From positions 94,245 through 158,244 of the forward strand of contig JAIMAQ010000006.1 in NCBI GenBank assembly GCA_023511875.1: a stretch of DNA of 64,000 nt, in the 5' to 3' direction. Position 1 is the stretch's first letter; each line of letters starts with the position of its first letter. The notes under the pieces were generated by a model. That model ran no database searches and was not told the origin of the DNA. It worked only from the letters and a program-made list of their open reading frames with translations. Made by a program: the position numbers and the translations under genes. The DNA is from Thermoflavifilum sp. GTDB taxonomy: Bacteria; Bacteroidota; Bacteroidia; Chitinophagales; Chitinophagaceae. Below, one piece after another: positions 13,947 through 38,766 of this stretch.

Positions 13947-15020
13947 ATGCTACGTTTTATACATCCCGCGCTCATGCTAAGCATTTGCCTGATAGCAGCA
14001 GCTTGTGGCCCGCACCAGCGCTCTGCCGCTTCACACCCGGATAGCTTGTTGACCATCCATCAACCTTTACCCACCCACCCTATTCGCTCGTTTGCCGATT
14101 CACAACCTTCTCTACCCCAAAAACCAGATACCTCGCCAGCAGCAAAACCCGATACAGGAAAGCATCATCCTGATACCACTCAACATGCTATAGCCAATCG
14201 ACGAGTTTGGCCAGTGAAATTCCCCCCTACATTGCCGGGATCAATCTTTCCCGAACATCGGGTGGTGGCTTTCTATGGCAATTTGTATTCAAAAAAAATG
14301 GGCATATTGGGCGAATTGCCTCCCGATCAGATGGTTGCCAAACTCTTACAAATGGCTCACATGTGGCAACAAGCCGATACAACCAAAAAGGTGATTCCCG
14401 CCCTCCACTTGATTGCGGTTACGGCTCAGGGGTATCCCGGCAAAGACGGTAAACATCGGCTGCGTATGCCCAACTGGATGATCGATAGTGTCATGCATAT
14501 GGCTAGCCGCATTAATGGACTCGTATTTTTGGACGTGCAGGTAGGGCTGAGTACGCTGCAAGACGAAGTTCCACGTTTGGAACCTTACTTAAAACTGCCC
14601 AACGTACATTTAGCTATTGACCCCGAGTTTTCGATGAAAACGGGTGCCGCACCGGGTACTCGTATCGGCACTTTCGACGCTGCCGATGTGAATTATTGTG
14701 CCGATTTTTTAACTCGTTTGGTCCAACAATACCACCTCCCTCCAAAAATCCTCGTTGTTCATCGGTTTACACAGCGCATGTTGACCAACTACAAGGACAT
14801 TAAGCTTAGGCCTGAAGTGCAGATTGTTATGGATATGGATGGTTGGGGGCCAAAATCTTTAAAAATCGATTCGTATAAAAACTTCATTGCCCGTGAACCC
14901 GTGGAATACACAGGATTCAAACTCTTTTTCAAAAACGATACCCGCAATGGGCAACCGTTGATGACTCCTCAAGAAGTGTTATCCCTTTTCCCGCCACCCG
15001 TTTATATCCAATATCAATGA
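13947..15020 (+). CDS. uncharacterised lipoprotein with a TIM-barrel-like domain
   Basis: I do not recognise the family. The protein has 357 residues. It starts with a lipoprotein signal peptide (LMLSICLIAAACG, lipid Cys near residue 20), then about 65 residues rich in Pro, Ser, Asp and Thr that look like a flexible linker. The C-terminal ~270 residues alternate beta strands and helices: RVVAFYGNLYSKKMGILGE, ALHLIAVTAQG, INGLVFLDVQVGLS, VHLAIDPEFSMK, PKILVVHRFTQRML, VQIVMDMDGWG, YTGFKLFF. The acidic residues at strand ends (DVQ, DPEF, DMDG) would suit a barrel glycosidase or polysaccharide deacetylase-like active site, but this is inference. The last 7 bases overlap the convergent DUF302 gene. 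Confidence 0.8.
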   Translation: MLRFIHPALMLSICLIAAACGPHQRSAASHPDSLLTIHQPLPTHPIRSFADSQPSLPQKPDTSPAAKPDTGKHHPDTTQHAIANRRVWPVKFPPTLPGSIFPEHRVVAFYGNLYSKKMGILGELPPDQMVAKLLQMAHMWQQADTTKKVIPALHLIAVTAQGYPGKDGKHRLRMPNWMIDSVMHMASRINGLVFLDVQVGLSTLQDEVPRLEPYLKLPNVHLAIDPEFSMKTGAAPGTRIGTFDAADVNYCADFLTRLVQQYHLPPKILVVHRFTQRMLTNYKDIKLRPEVQIVMDMDGWGPKSLKIDSYKNFIAREPVEYTGFKLFFKNDTRNGQPLMTPQEVLSLFPPPVYIQYQ

Positions 15021-15415
15021 TTGGGCGCCAATCGATGAAGCACTTGTTGTAATTTTTTTCTGACTTCTTCGGCAATATTCTTGAGCTGGTCATTGTGGAC
15101 AGCAGCCATCGAAGCTACTGGATCTACAGCTGTAACCTCAATTTCACCAGCGGTATTTTCTTCTACCACCACATTACAGGGAAGCATAGTACCTATCTTA
15201 TCTTCGGCTTGCAAGGCCTGATAGGCAAATGGCGGATTACAAGCACCCAAGATCCGATACTTCCGAAAATCTACATTGAGCTTTTTTTTCAATGTAGCTT
15301 GCACATCTATTTCGGTGAGTACGCCGAAACCCTCTGCTTGCAAGGCATCAGTAACCCGCTGGATAGCTTCTTCGAAAGTAACGTTTTCCAAACGCGTATT
15401 GAAATAATAACTCAT
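15014..15415 (-). CDS. DUF302 domain-containing protein
   Basis: A 133-residue cytosolic protein, nearly all of it the DUF302 domain: FEEAIQRVTDALQAEGFGVLTEIDVQATLKKKL, RILGACNPPFAYQAL, IGTMLPCNVVVEE, VDPVASM. The biochemical role of DUF302 is not established. Members are often found near redox, heavy-metal or sulfur-handling genes. It lies 86 bases downstream of the second copper-efflux adaptor gene but has its own likely regulator site: a perfect GTAAC-N4-GTTAC dyad 46 bases before the ATG. Expression may thus follow the Crp/Fnr regulator at 38.5 kb and not, or not only, copper. Confidence 0.9.
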   Translation of the reverse strand: MSYYFNTRLENVTFEEAIQRVTDALQAEGFGVLTEIDVQATLKKKLNVDFRKYRILGACNPPFAYQALQAEDKIGTMLPCNVVVEENTAGEIEVTAVDPVASMAAVHNDQLKNIAEEVRKKLQQVLHRLAPNH

Positions 15416-15460
15416 AGCATTAGTTTTATTCGAATTTCATCTTTTATTCCAAAAATCTGC

Positions 15461-15474
15461 GTAACCTCCGTTAC
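15461..15474 (-). promoter_or_regulatory. GTAAC-N4-GTTAC dyad, candidate Crp/Fnr-family site
   Basis: GTAAC-CTCC-GTTAC is an exact 5+5 dyad with a 4-base spacer. Its near edge is 46 bases upstream of the DUF302 ATG. An identical arm pair at the identical distance stands before the DUF2892 gene (38148-38161). At the matching offset downstream, a degenerate -7 box (GAAATTCG) is found, as expected for an activator-dependent promoter. Confidence 0.6.
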
Positions 15475-15501: not shown

Positions 15502-16731
15502 TTATTGGCTTCTACCTTTCATATTCATATCTGACATTTGCATACCCGCCATATTTACCCCACTTCCATAGATTAACTCATACTGGCTGTTGAGCAAATA
15601 GGCTCCTTGAGCTACTACTTGTTCACCGGGCTTCAGCCCCTGCCATACAGCAGCCCATCCCTGATGAATAGGTCCCAGGTCAATCTTTTTCCTTACATAT
15701 GTATGAGGTTTTTGCTGTACCCACACCAATGGTTGGCCTGTTTCAAACATAATTGCCGAAGCCGGCACCTGCAAGGCACTCGAATAAGGCTTATGTGTGT
15801 CTATCTCCAACTCTACATAAGCCAATTCTCCAGGCTGGATATGGACTTGGGGATCAGAGATCACGATATTGAGCAAATATACCATTGATTGTGGCTGTAC
15901 TGCTGGATTAGAAAAAGCTATTCGGCCTGTAAATATTTGTTGAGGATGAGCGGGTAGCTCGATGCGGATATCTTTAACCAAAGGCAAGATAGAGATGTCT
16001 TCAGGGCTAAGCTGTGCTTGTACCCAAAAAGTAGAAGTGCGCGTAAGTTGAACGACGGATTGCCCCTGAGCCACATAATCGCCTTCTTGTTTGAGCTTAG
16101 CGGTTAAATATCCACTCGTTGTGCTATACACCGTGAGGGTGTCTATCGACAAATGATGAACAGATTTGCCGCTGGTGATCAGTTGCCGAAATGCTTCAAT
16201 TTGTTGCCTATTTAATCCTCGCCGTAAAAGCCGTCTTTCCAGCGCATGCAAAAAAAGAGTATCTGACGGCGCTCGATGTTGTATAGCAGTCAGATAAGTC
16301 TGTTCATCGGCAGCGAGATCGGGACTATATACCTGAAATAGGGGCTGGTGAGCGCGCACATATTCTCCAGGATTGTTGACATACAGCTTCGTAATCCAGC
16401 CAGAAAATACAGGACTATAAGTTGTTATTTGGGTAGGATCAAATACCGTAGTACCCGTAAGCCTACGTATCTCTACCACTTGCCCGGTGCCAACAGGGAA
16501 TGTATGAATGCCCGCAAGCCGTTCCTGAGCCGAGGTAAGGGTAATGGGCATTGCAAACATGTCATGCATTTGTTGCTGCATATCTTGTCGGCCGTGCATA
16601 TTGTGTACATGAGCAGAAACCGAATCGGCTGACACAGTGTTAGTGGTGTTGGATGACGGTTGAAGACGACATCCCGCCCCCAATGCAATTGCCAAAAAGA
16701 ATCCTAATGAATATTGATTAATAGTGCTCAT
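15502..16731 (-). CDS. CusB-type RND efflux periplasmic adaptor with Met/His-rich ends
   Basis: A membrane-fusion protein of about 409 residues (ATG at 16731; the track start at 16755 adds 8 residues and overlaps the upstream gene). The lipoprotein signal is LGFFLAIALGAGC. It is followed by a Met/His-rich stretch (AHVHNMHGRQDM, QQQMHDMFAM). The adaptor core follows: YSPVFSGWITKLYVNNPGEYV, a helical hairpin, YSTTSGYLTAKLKQEGDYV (barrel-sandwich) and beta-barrel and membrane-proximal parts. The C-terminus is again Met-rich (NMAGMQMSDMNMKG). Such clusters bind Cu(I)/Ag(I). It is the last pump gene of the copper island, right behind a second adaptor gene, which is unusual because one adaptor normally suffices. 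Confidence 0.9.
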   Translation of the reverse strand: MSTINQYSLGFFLAIALGAGCRLQPSSNTTNTVSADSVSAHVHNMHGRQDMQQQMHDMFAMPITLTSAQERLAGIHTFPVGTGQVVEIRRLTGTTVFDPTQITTYSPVFSGWITKLYVNNPGEYVRAHQPLFQVYSPDLAADEQTYLTAIQHRAPSDTLFLHALERRLLRRGLNRQQIEAFRQLITSGKSVHHLSIDTLTVYSTTSGYLTAKLKQEGDYVAQGQSVVQLTRTSTFWVQAQLSPEDISILPLVKDIRIELPAHPQQIFTGRIAFSNPAVQPQSMVYLLNIVISDPQVHIQPGELAYVELEIDTHKPYSSALQVPASAIMFETGQPLVWVQQKPHTYVRKKIDLGPIHQGWAAVWQGLKPGEQVVAQGAYLLNSQYELIYGSGVNMAGMQMSDMNMKGRSQ

Positions 16732-16751
16732 ATCTTTAAAAAAATTATAGG

Positions 16752-18119
16752 TCACGGATGCCCAAGTATATGGGCTGATTTCTGAGCAGAAGAGTACCAG
16801 CTTATAGCAGATTCCAGTGAAACAGGGCTGTCGGGATCGACCATATATGCCGCATGACGAGCTACTCGTTCACCAGGAGAGAGTCCGCTTAACACCTGCA
16901 CCCAATCGTTAGATATCATGCCCAATTGCACTTCCCTCACATGAAATACATGGGGAAATTGCTTGTCTTGAACCCAAACCACTTCATGGCGCCCCAAGAA
17001 GTCTACTGCAGAACGCGGTATAAACAATCCCTGCGGGGTGTGTATGCGAGGAAAAATCTCGGCCCGAATAAGGCTATTGTACTTCCATTGGTCAGGGATA
17101 TTGTTCAAATAAACCCGAATCGAAGCAAAATTCTGAGCATCTGGATCTCGAATGGGAGGAATAAAGTCAACTCGTCCCTTTACTCTTCCTTGGAGGTTGC
17201 CTTCTAACCACAGATCCACAGGATCGCCCACCTGTATTTGCGCAAGCTGGGCATTACTCACTTGTACAATTGCCCAAGCTCGTTGCTCATTCAAAATAGC
17301 CAGCACTGGAACGCCTGCCTCCACATAAGCACCCTTTACATAGGGTAATGTCATTGGCTGCATGGTAGGAGATGAATGACCATCCTCCGTCGACATAAAC
17401 CCCGAAGCGGGTATCTCGGGTAGGCTGAGGATGCCCGATGCTGGACTAGCAAGGACGAAAGTCACAATAGGTTGCAAACTCCGCCGCACCTGTGCAATCT
17501 CTCGTGGCAACATGCCTTGAAGACGCAGGCTTTCTTCTAGCGACAACACCAAGGCAGTATCGTGTTGGCGAACGGCCTGAATCCAATATTGCTGCACAGT
17601 AAGTAAATCAGGGCTATATATCCTCATCAGAGGTTGACCCTTGCGCACATGGCTGAATAATGAAGGTACATATAAGGAATCTATCCAGCCGCTCACACGT
17701 GGTGTAATTAACTGCGTATAGCGTTGATCATAAGTGAGGTAGCCGACGGCTTGAATAGTATCGGGAATAACTGCACGAGATGGAACAGTTGTAGCAAAAT
17801 CGCCGATTACCGTTTCGGTAACGGGCTCTTCGAGTAAATTGAGCAAGCTATCTGGTTGTTCAGTTGTCGTATCCGCTGTCTCTGGCTCACTCGACAGTGA
17901 ATGGAACTCTAACGTCATGCCACAAATTGGGCATTTCCCTGGCTGATCTCTATGTATCTGAGGATGCATGGAGCAGGTGTAATACCCATTTTGGTGCTGC
18001 ACGGCCGCAGCATTCTTTTTCCCCGTAAACTCGTTGCAGCCATATGCCCAAAAGGCTGTAGTGAAGGCTATTATCCAGATGTGCAACCAGAGAATTCTTT
18101 GCATTATTGGGTGTTTCAT
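16752..18119 (-). CDS. cusB: CusB-type RND efflux adaptor with N-terminal heavy-metal-binding (HMBD) domain
   Basis: A 455-residue periplasmic adaptor that links the CusA pump to the CusC channel. The lipoprotein signal ends AFWAYGC. Residues ~45-72 are an HMBD zinc-ribbon-like metal site, YYTCSMHPQIHRDQPGKCPICGM, seen in many Bacteroidota CusB proteins and thought to collect Cu/Ag ions. The adaptor core follows: ITPRVSGWIDSLYVPSLFSHVRKGQPL, then YIKAGAPV-like lipoyl parts and a beta-barrel (WAIVQVSNAQLAQIQVGDPVDLWL). It is 38 bases downstream of the cusC-like gene and immediately upstream of the second adaptor, so the genes are cotranscribed and probably translationally coupled. Confidence 0.93.
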   Translation of the reverse strand: MKHPIMQRILWLHIWIIAFTTAFWAYGCNEFTGKKNAAAVQHQNGYYTCSMHPQIHRDQPGKCPICGMTLEFHSLSSEPETADTTTEQPDSLLNLLEEPVTETVIGDFATTVPSRAVIPDTIQAVGYLTYDQRYTQLITPRVSGWIDSLYVPSLFSHVRKGQPLMRIYSPDLLTVQQYWIQAVRQHDTALVLSLEESLRLQGMLPREIAQVRRSLQPIVTFVLASPASGILSLPEIPASGFMSTEDGHSSPTMQPMTLPYVKGAYVEAGVPVLAILNEQRAWAIVQVSNAQLAQIQVGDPVDLWLEGNLQGRVKGRVDFIPPIRDPDAQNFASIRVYLNNIPDQWKYNSLIRAEIFPRIHTPQGLFIPRSAVDFLGRHEVVWVQDKQFPHVFHVREVQLGMISNDWVQVLSGLSPGERVARHAAYMVDPDSPVSLESAISWYSSAQKSAHILGHP

Positions 18120-37013: not shown

Positions 37014-37115
37014 TTTTTATAAATGAGACCAACCCTGTAACCGAAGGTTTAATCGATAAATCAGCTTGCATGTTTAAAGATTTTGGGTTATTTTTCTTCT
37101 TCAAAAACAAAACGT

Positions 37116-37487
37116 ATGAAAAATATAATCCCCAACCGCGTAGCCATGATTGTCTTTGCCATTCCTTTCTTGTATATTGGCATCAATCATTTGCTGTATG
37201 CTTCTCAGATGGCATCAATGTCGCCAATTCCTCCCGGCAAGTTTTGGATTATCATATCTGGAATAGCTCAGATACTAGCCGGTATTTCATTTATCATCAA
37301 CGTGCGAGCTAAACTTGCGGGCTATTTACTTGCTTTGTATTTATTGCTCGTTATTGTGCTGGTACGATTGCCCATGGGGTTTCATGATGCTAATCAAAAT
37401 CTCATGTTGGTGAAAGACTTAGGCCTTCTGGCTGGGGCTATTTTATTAGCCAACCAAGCAGCTTCCCCACAGAAAAAAGAAAGCTAG
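37116..37487 (+). CDS. DoxX-like four-helix membrane protein
   Basis: 123 residues from the ATG at 37116 (MKNIIPNRVAMIVFAIP); the track start is upstream and non-ATG. Four hydrophobic segments: AMIVFAIPFLYIGINHLLYA, FWIIISGIAQILAGISFII, LAGYLLALYLLLVIVLV and LVKDLGLLAGAILLA. The GxxxHF/HxxY-like first helix and the KDLGLLAGA last helix are typical of the DoxX/MauE-like group. The function is not known; members are linked to quinone or thiol redox in some species. It converges on the thioredoxin gene. Confidence 0.78.
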   Translation: MKNIIPNRVAMIVFAIPFLYIGINHLLYASQMASMSPIPPGKFWIIISGIAQILAGISFIINVRAKLAGYLLALYLLLVIVLVRLPMGFHDANQNLMLVKDLGLLAGAILLANQAASPQKKES

Positions 37488-37493
37488 GTGCCA

Positions 37494-37862
37494 CTAGGCT
37501 GTTTGTGATGGGGCCGAAGTAGCTTGTGTTGCTTCGGCTTCTTTTTTGATGTCGTCTAAAATACGTTGTAAAACTTGTAAGAGTTGATCAGGTGGTACCA
37601 CGCCAGAATGACGCCAGAGAGGCTCACCCTTGCGAAAAACCATTAACGTGGGCACTCCAGAGATTTGATATACACTCGCTACTAAAGGCTGCCGGTCTAC
37701 ATCTACTTGATGAAACAAAACCTGATCACCTATGCGATGTTTCACTTCTTCCAAAATAGGCTCCATCATCTTGCAAGGCATACACCATGTGGCAAAAAAA
37801 TCGACCAACACAGGTTTTTCACTTCGGATGATCTCCGAAAACGTAAGTTGATTCTTTGACAT
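37494..37862 (-). CDS. trxA: thioredoxin
   Basis: A 122-residue thioredoxin without a signal peptide. It has the active site in VDFFATWCMPCKMMEPILEE (Cys27, Cys30; CMPC instead of the standard CGPC), SGVPTLMVFRKGEP with the conserved cis-Pro, and a short hydrophilic tail. It should reduce protein disulfides in the cytosol. The CMPC variant is expected to shift the redox potential relative to standard thioredoxin. It is 33 bases downstream of the DUF2892 gene on the same strand, with the Crp/Fnr gene before that, so it is probably part of the same redox unit. Confidence 0.93.
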   Translation of the reverse strand: MSKNQLTFSEIIRSEKPVLVDFFATWCMPCKMMEPILEEVKHRIGDQVLFHQVDVDRQPLVASVYQISGVPTLMVFRKGEPLWRHSGVVPPDQLLQVLQRILDDIKKEAEATQATSAPSQTA

Positions 37863-37895: not shown

Positions 37896-38102
37896 TTACC
37901 TGGGCACACGACACGTGCTAATGCCCAGTATTCGGTACAAGGGGCAAAAATTGATCAATGCCGTCAGCAATAATACAATGCCGACAATCAATAAAACAAT
38001 GCCCCATGTTCCAGTAACGGTATGGGTAAAATATAAGATACCTAACACGATGGCTATAAGGAACCGGATCAAACGGTCGAGTTTACTCATATTGGTTTTC
38101 AT
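37896..38102 (-). CDS. YgaP-like DUF2892 small membrane protein
   Basis: About 68 residues from the ATG at 38102 (MKTNMSKLDRLIRFLIA); the longer track start overlaps the regulator site and the end of the Crp/Fnr gene. Two membrane helices (FLIAIVLGILYFTHTVTG and GIVLLIVGIVLLLTALI) are followed by CPLYRILGISTC, the cysteine motif of the DUF2892 module. This is the membrane part of YgaP, which in E. coli is fused to a rhodanese domain. Here it stands alone. The motif and the neighbours suggest persulfide or thiol redox. A GTAAC-N4-GTTAC dyad stands 46 bases upstream of the ATG. Confidence 0.85.
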   Translation of the reverse strand: MKTNMSKLDRLIRFLIAIVLGILYFTHTVTGTWGIVLLIVGIVLLLTALINFCPLYRILGISTCRVPR

Positions 38103-38117
38103 AACTTGAATTTTTAT

Positions 38118-38125
38118 CAAAATAA
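38118..38125 (-). promoter_or_regulatory. near-consensus -7 box of the DUF2892-trx unit
   Basis: TTATTTTG on the minus strand (one mismatch to TAnnTTTG). A start about 6 bases further puts the upstream GTAAC dyad centre near -42, the usual place for a class II Crp/Fnr activator. Confidence 0.45.
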
Positions 38126-38147: not shown

Positions 38148-38161
38148 GTAACATGGGTTAC
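38148..38161 (-). promoter_or_regulatory. GTAAC-N4-GTTAC dyad, candidate Crp/Fnr-family site
   Basis: GTAAC-ATGG-GTTAC overlaps the stop codon of the Crp/Fnr gene and lies 46 bases before the DUF2892 ATG. Arms and distance are identical to those of the DUF302 site at 15461-15474. It resembles the dyads I recall for HcpR-like members of the Crp/Fnr family. Confidence 0.65.
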
Positions 38162-38766
38162 ATAGTATGCTTTGGTTGAAGCAGCACAATACGATTACGG
38201 CCCAATTGCACAATGCCTTCGTTTTCCAATTGCTTAAGCAAGCGTGAAACCACTACTCGATCGGTACCCAACTCGTCGGCCAATTGCTGATGGGTGATTT
38301 GCAATTCATGGGATTTATTCAGAGAAGATTTTTTTTGAAGCAGTGTTAATAGGCGTTCATCCATTCGTTTAAAAGCTACTGCGTTGAGCACATTGAGAAC
38401 TTCTTCAAACCGACGGTGATATAAGCGAAACATAAATTCGATAAAGCCATATTCTTCACGAATCATGCGACGAACTTCATCAATGGAGATCAACAAGATA
38501 TCGGCATCTTCTTCTACTACTGCTTTGATCTTACTTTTTTCATCATGCAACCCTCCTAGAAACGACATCACACAGCTCTCCCCAGGTTGGATGTAATACA
38601 GCAGGATTTCTTTTCCTTCTTCGTTTTGCTTCAATATCTTCACCACTCCCGACAGCACTATGGGTACGCTACGGATATAGCTGCCTTCTTGCAACAACAC
38701 TGCTCCCGATGGGAATGTGCGTACTTCACCCACTTCCATCCATTTTTCCCGAAAATATTCTTCCAT
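38158..38766 (-). CDS. Crp/Fnr family transcriptional regulator
   Basis: About 202 residues from the ATG at 38766 (MEEYFREKWMEVGEV). The N-terminal cyclic-nucleotide-binding-like jelly roll has FPSGAVLLQEG, VLSGVVKILKQNEEGKEILLYYIQPGESC. The long dimer helix follows, and then the C-terminal helix-turn-helix ITHQQLADELGTDRVVVSRLLKQLENEGIVQL. There is no N-terminal Cys cluster of the Fnr type; a single Cys in GESCVMSF could be a redox or thiol switch, by inference. It probably acts on the GTAAC-N4-GTTAC sites at its own 3' end and at 15.46 kb. It is 71 bases downstream of the dienelactone hydrolase gene. Confidence 0.92.
   Translation of the reverse strand: MEEYFREKWMEVGEVRTFPSGAVLLQEGSYIRSVPIVLSGVVKILKQNEEGKEILLYYIQPGESCVMSFLGGLHDEKSKIKAVVEEDADILLISIDEVRRMIREEYGFIEFMFRLYHRRFEEVLNVLNAVAFKRMDERLLTLLQKKSSLNKSHELQITHQQLADELGTDRVVVSRLLKQLENEGIVQLGRNRIVLLQPKHTM

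Follow-up and report, generated by a model that had tools for sequence, protein, structure and literature searches.

Predicted Crp/Fnr operators at a fixed promoter spacing before sulfide and persulfide genes in Thermoflavifilum and other Bacteroidota

Two dyads and a regulator gene in the window

The window, by which is meant the whole stretch of 64,000 nucleotides of Thermoflavifilum sp. DNA that was analysed, lies on contig 29 of a genome of 2.70 Mb that is 99.7% complete. Pattern search with GTAACNNNNGTTAC recovers two exact copies of the dyad GTAAC-N4-GTTAC in the window, at 15461-15474 and 38148-38161 (both assigned to the minus strand), and no third exact copy, which confirms the number and the positions given in the original prediction; dinucleotide shuffles give an expectation of 0.03 dyads per window, and two copies were reached in none of 100 shuffles. 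The dyad at 38148-38161 is the predicted operator of a minus-strand operon in which the first gene encodes a YgaP-like transmembrane protein with a DUF2892 domain (37896-38102; Pfam PF11127, 80 bits) and the second a thioredoxin (37494-37862; Pfam PF00085, 90 bits, with the NCBIfam thioredoxin model also above its cut-off). This dyad overlaps the 3' end of a Crp/Fnr regulator gene, as had been claimed, and contains that gene's stop codon (38158-38160). The dyad at 15461-15474 is the predicted operator of a minus-strand DUF302 gene (15014-15415; Pfam PF03625, 93.8 bits).

Both dyads end 46 bases before a start codon (38148 against an ATG that ends at 38102, and 15461 against one that ends at 15415), and each is followed after 22 bases by a -7 promoter box on the minus strand: TTATTTTG at 38118-38125, which matches TAnnTTTG at five of six positions, and the degenerate GAAATTCG at 15431-15438, which matches at four of six and makes the DUF302 promoter the weakest of the promoter set. 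The 46-base distance and the two boxes had been reported before and are found as described. A CusB-like gene (15502-16755) immediately precedes the DUF302 gene, and a weakly DoxX-like membrane protein gene on the plus strand (37083-37487; 21.9 bits, below the Pfam cut-off) converges on the thioredoxin gene.

The regulator gene (38158-38766, minus strand) encodes 202 amino acids from an ATG at 38766. Its product belongs to the Crp/Fnr superfamily, with the cNMP_binding domain (PF00027, 47 bits) and the HTH_Crp_2 domain (PF13545, 49.8 bits) both above their Pfam cut-offs, and its structure model (mean pLDDT 87) has the CRP/CAP fold, the Foldseek match to T. thermophilus CAP 4ev0 having an E of 2.8e-15 and a TM of 0.79; the earlier gene calls for the regulator, the DUF2892 protein, the thioredoxin and the DUF302 protein all stand under Pfam. 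Alignment to CRP places the regulator's only cysteine, Cys65 (in GESC; codon at 38572-38574, minus strand), in the phosphate-binding cassette, in which the cAMP contacts of CRP are unmatched. All 20 aligned homologues have this cysteine, as do the regulators of 77 of the 77 scorable loci among the 80 described below. The recognition helix carries Arg, Val and Arg at CRP positions 180, 181 and 185, the Val at the specificity position 181 being residue 171 of the regulator by alignment (codon at 38254-38256, minus strand). The genome has two cNMP-binding proteins, this regulator and a response-regulator fusion on contig 34, and no dyad was found in it before the regulator gene itself.

A fixed promoter spacing before sulfide and persulfide genes

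When the genome is scanned by pattern search it yields four exact dyads against six copies of the reversed control pattern, so the dyad is not overrepresented by number, and the signal resides in the placement of its copies. All four precede sulfide or persulfide genes: besides the DUF2892-thioredoxin operon and the DUF302 gene, the third precedes a gene for a persulfide-dioxygenase (PDO)-like protein that combines an MBL fold with rhodanese domains, and the fourth a gene for an SQR-like FAD oxidoreductase whose match to the SQR model is below the NCBIfam cut-off. A search of the genome for the promoter geometry, in which up to two mismatches were allowed, adds a GTGAC...GTTAC variant with a perfect TAATTTTG box before a TauE/SafE gene. 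The original prediction had looked to a genome scan for rhodanese, MBL-fold, TauE/SafE and DUF302 targets, and all of these kinds turned up. From what is established about these families, the targets suit roles in the oxidation of sulfide, the handling of persulfide or the export of sulfur compounds, DUF302 being of unknown function.

Within the genus, the DUF2892-thioredoxin site lies behind the regulator gene in five of five Thermoflavifilum genomes, and TauE/SafE sites are present in the same five, being of the GTGAC type in two of the other four; the PDO site is found in three of those four, the SQR site in two, and the DUF302 site in three (exact in G004, with one half-site changed in G001 and G002; G and L numbers denote genomes and loci). 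A few exact dyads in the other Thermoflavifilum genomes lie inside genes. Intergenic exact dyads that have no assigned downstream gene occur in sister species at L061 (G001 C2:2277307) and L065 (G002 C1:2076404). At L001, L060, L066 and L070 the dyad separates PDO from a divergently oriented cysteine desulfurase-like gene; that gene's own -7-like box stands at other offsets, so the dyad may not control it.

The distance from the dyad to the start codon varies in the genus from about 43 to 64 bases, and the 46 bases common to the two sites in the window were accordingly rejected as a meaningful spacing; what is invariant is the distance from the dyad to the TAnnTTTG box, which is 22 bases, or 23 at two PDO promoters. 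Averaged over 30 intergenic sites, the match to TAnnTTTG reaches 5.23 of 6 at offset 22, compared with 1.85 (sd 0.27) elsewhere, and a score of at least 5 is reached by 25 of the 30 at that offset and by at most two sites at any other. The sequence that separates the dyad from the box is low in information, as is expected of a functional footprint. The operator of a class II Crp/Fnr promoter is centred near -41.5, and the fixed 22 bases would place the dyad there: with the start of the box set at -12, the centre of the dyad comes to lie at about -41.5 relative to the inferred transcription start. This supports the claim that transcription would begin some 42 bases from the dyad centre, in the class II activator arrangement.

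The same elements were followed through 80 loci, nearly all of them named as Bacteroidota, that were retrieved with aligned regulator homologues as the query. When the noncoding DNA of these loci was searched for palindromes without bias, over 1024 half-sites and spacers of 0-10, GTAAC-N4-GTTAC ranked first among the non-homopolymer motifs, with 9 observed against 0.23 expected and at spacer 4 only, followed by GTGAC-N4-GTCAC (5 against 0.07). If sites are counted with the third base of each half-site left free and one further mismatch allowed, the 22-base spacing yields 108 sites in 69 of the 80 loci, while other spacings yield a mean of 4.0, relatives not being down-weighted in these counts. 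The second-highest spacing, offset 7 with 25 matches, was considered as a counter-example and rejected, because these matches come from conserved sequence that precedes the dyad, read on the opposite strand. A site lies just behind the regulator gene (between -30 and +200 of its 3' end, on the same strand) in 58 of the 80 loci, so the layout seen in the window is a conserved module rather than an accidental overlap; the genes after these 58 sites are TauE/SafE (23), DUF2892 (14), rhodanese (6), PDO (3), DUF302 (2), peroxiredoxin (1) and unassigned (9).

A sulfur island of 26 kb on contig 1 of G026 (2653-2680 kb; L053-L055) carries seven exact dyads. It includes an operon ordered PDO-HMA-MBL/rhodanese-peroxiredoxin-rhodanese-rhodanese-DUF2892-thioredoxin, a TauE/SafE gene that diverges from cydAB, SQR and YeeE-like genes, and one further copy each of a PDO and a Crp/Fnr gene. 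One G026 dyad has a perfect box 22 bases away on both sides.

In 395 Bacteroidia genomes, picked irrespective of the regulator, the query dyad-N21-23-TAnnTTTG finds 120 sites in 81 genomes against 14 sites of the reversed pattern, and is thus about nine times commoner; the spacing is exactly 22 bases in 95 of about 117 intergenic sites, a few of which are counted twice in overlapping loci. The first genes of the sulfur type are led by PDO (19), rhodanese (14, of which three are large flavoprotein-rhodanese fusions) and TauE/SafE (11), and further first genes are thioredoxin (5), SQR (3), cydA (2), DUF302 (1) and a YeeE-like gene. Other first genes are OEP/TolC of efflux operons (11), DUF983 (9), SulP (4), frdX (4), DsbD-like genes (3), MauG-type peroxidases (3) and hcp, and several of these targets (TolC/RND, DUF983 and MauG peroxidase) have no obvious tie to sulfide metabolism. 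A regulator homologue, admitted at E up to 1e-25, is present in 70 of the 81 site-bearing genomes as against 163 of the 314 others (Fisher p 5e-9, a value that ignores kinship), and five of the 11 site-bearing genomes that lack one are hcp/frdX genomes.

In many genomes the same promoter stands before the gene of an outer-membrane efflux protein (OEP/TolC), which a CusB-like gene often follows (L251, L253, L257, L258, L276, L284, L287, L291, L313 and L314). DUF983, the function of which is unknown, recurs as the first gene at L260, L268, L270, L271, L272, L280, L290, L301 and L308, sometimes with a rhodanese or Crp/Fnr gene next. Genes for hcp and frdX carry the same dyad-N21-23-box promoter at L213, L215, L216, L223 and L237.

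The probable reader of the dyads and its candidate signal

The dyads are interpreted here as predicted operators of a sulfide and sulfane-sulfur detoxification regulon driven by the Crp/Fnr activator encoded at 38158-38766, a reading to which a probability of about 0.8 is assigned. The motif, its fixed spacing, the target set, the gene arrangement and the conserved cysteine are direct observations on the sequences, and at that level they bear out the core of the original prediction, namely that the two sites belong to a single Crp/Fnr-type regulon, are spaced as in class II promoters and serve thiol or persulfide targets. Beyond these observations, we infer DNA binding by the regulator, activation rather than repression, and the identity of the effector. 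In the proposed mechanism, a regulator dimer would bind GTAAC-N4-GTTAC, with its centre at about -41.5 and TAnnTTTG 22 bases further on, and would act as a class II activator that recruits RNA polymerase. In this genome the regulon is predicted to comprise DUF2892-thioredoxin, DUF302, the PDO-like MBL-rhodanese protein, TauE/SafE and the SQR-like oxidoreductase. As the signal, sulfide-derived sulfane sulfur (persulfide or polysulfide) acting on Cys65, at the place where CRP would hold cAMP, is the likeliest candidate. The response would raise oxidation of sulfide by the SQR-like enzyme, oxidation and transfer of persulfide by PDO and rhodanese, thiol repair by thioredoxin and export by TauE/SafE. 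The stronger proposition, that one-cysteine Crp/Fnr activators throughout the phylum sense sulfane sulfur directly at Cys65 and drive detoxification from an invariant class II promoter, is advanced tentatively, at slightly less than even odds; if it is true, this family would be the Bacteroidota counterpart of SqrR, CstR and FisR.

The alternative that survives best retains the regulon and its reader and replaces the signal, which would be general thiol oxidants, oxygen, the redox state, a metal, or a small ligand bound in what was once the cyclic-nucleotide pocket, with the sulfide genes forming part of a wider redox response. A single cysteine is able to react with several oxidants, and the targets elsewhere include cydAB, peroxiredoxin, DsbD-like proteins, MauG-type peroxidase and TolC/RND operons. 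However, PDO, rhodanese and TauE/SafE are by far the commonest targets, and cydAB also fits a sulfide response, because cytochrome bd resists sulfide; taken as a whole, this account is considered rather unlikely, while retaining appreciable weight.

It is probably the protein encoded at 38158-38766 that reads the dyads: it has the Crp/Fnr domains, is one of two cNMP-binding proteins in the genome, and its homologues co-occur with the sites. Loci with Val181 have A-type half-sites (GTAAC) in 39 of 44 cases, whereas loci with Glu181 have G-type, CRP-like half-sites (GTGAC) in 17 of 18, and this link agrees with the published specificity positions (PMC1274295). That residue 181 sets the half-site base is suggestive, the phylogenetically corrected test pointing in the same direction with only three independent changes, which leaves it underpowered. 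Another DNA-binding protein might read the dyads, the neighbouring Crp/Fnr gene being a passenger, and the obvious candidate is the response-regulator/Crp fusion on contig 34, which is the genome's only other cNMP-binding protein and has a Crp-type HTH; but this fusion carries Lys-Glu at the matching positions, while the half-site base tracks residue 181 of the neighbouring regulator and the sites lie directly behind that regulator in 58 of 80 loci, so that a different reader is improbable.

Only slightly less probable again is membership of the HcpR regulon, in which a heme-binding, NO-sensing Crp/Fnr protein controls hcp and its relatives through GTAAC-N4-GTTAC. The operator of the HcpR2 regulon, described in Clostridia, Bacteroides and Thermotogales, is the identical GTAACnnnnGTTAC (Rodionov 2005, PMC1274295), and HcpR2 shares with the present regulator the Crp/Fnr fold and the Arg at CRP position 180. 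Some Bacteroidia sites also precede hcp and frdX beside Pro181 regulators, and because the HcpR2-type neighbours of the L215 and L223 sites are among these, two Crp/Fnr subfamilies share one operator in the class. HcpR2, however, has Pro181 and controls hcp and frdX, and the HcpR of P. gingivalis binds heme (PMC12750200), whereas the present regulator has Val181, a conserved Cys65 that the HcpR2-type proteins of L215 and L223 lack, and sulfide genes as its predicted targets, and a search for hcp (PF03063) gave no match in this 99.7% complete genome. The earlier pointer to HcpR-type proteins thus held for the motif and failed for membership, which was rejected. Since HcpR and the present subfamily share one motif, regulon predictions based on the motif alone would mix nitrosative with sulfide responses.

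Chance, by which two 10-base matches would lie before genes by accident, is negligible: the genome-wide count does not exceed that of the reversed control, but all four copies precede genes of one pathway, a spacing of 22 is fixed across a class over an interval that is itself hardly conserved, and the shuffles, the palindrome scan, the box match at offset 22 and the spacing in the 80 loci all reject it. A terminator was rejected because the dyad is not G+C-rich and keeps a constant distance to a promoter box, a cAMP-type CRP because of the unmatched cassette contacts, the Val181 and a score of 57 bits against a cut-off of 266 for the NCBIfam CRP equivalog, and FNR because it requires four Fe-S cysteines while the regulator has one cysteine.

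Relation to known sulfide regulators

CstR is a CsoR-family sulfide regulator. The known sulfide regulators of other families include SqrR/BigR/YgaV of the ArsR family and the sigma-54 activator FisR (PMC9774590). The predicted regulon falls into the functional class of SqrR, CstR and FisR in that its operators precede SQR, PDO, rhodanese and sulfur-export genes, which are the genes that SqrR/BigR/YgaV, CstR and FisR control, by cysteine-based sensing where this has been studied. SqrR, BigR and CstR act as repressors and each have at least two cysteines, whereas the protein described here is a Crp/Fnr protein with one cysteine and an operator at the activator position. It resembles CRP/CAP in its fold, in the Arg at positions 180 and 185 and in the class II spacing, and differs in the replacement of Glu181 by Val and in having a cysteine among the unmatched residues of the cassette that would hold cAMP.

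No Crp/Fnr precedent for sulfane-sulfur sensing at a pocket cysteine was found in the literature searched. In sulfide-treated cells of Acinetobacter baumannii a cysteine of a Crp-like protein is persulfidated (PMC7315123), and by analogy this makes the chemistry proposed for Cys65 plausible; the A. baumannii protein, unlike the present regulator, is an orthologue of E. coli Crp, with 50% identity, and has no shown sulfide regulon. Regulators of the ArsR, CsoR and FisR types have been described for sulfide and persulfide control, and the literature searched held no Bacteroidota equivalent. The novelty of a sulfide-response switch in Bacteroidota is provisional: no earlier description of a Crp/Fnr sulfide regulon in the phylum was found in the open literature, to which the search was confined.

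The operator, the promoter geometry, the regulator and the candidate sensor residue apply to cultured genera such as Chryseobacterium, Sphingobacterium, Pedobacter and Bacteroides. An asymmetric form of the site, preceded by an A-rich stretch and cTTnT, occurs in Chryseobacterium, Sphingobacterium, Niabella and relatives (L143, L144, L178, L183 and others among L128-L205); its distal half is GTAAC and its promoter-proximal half is mostly GTAGC.
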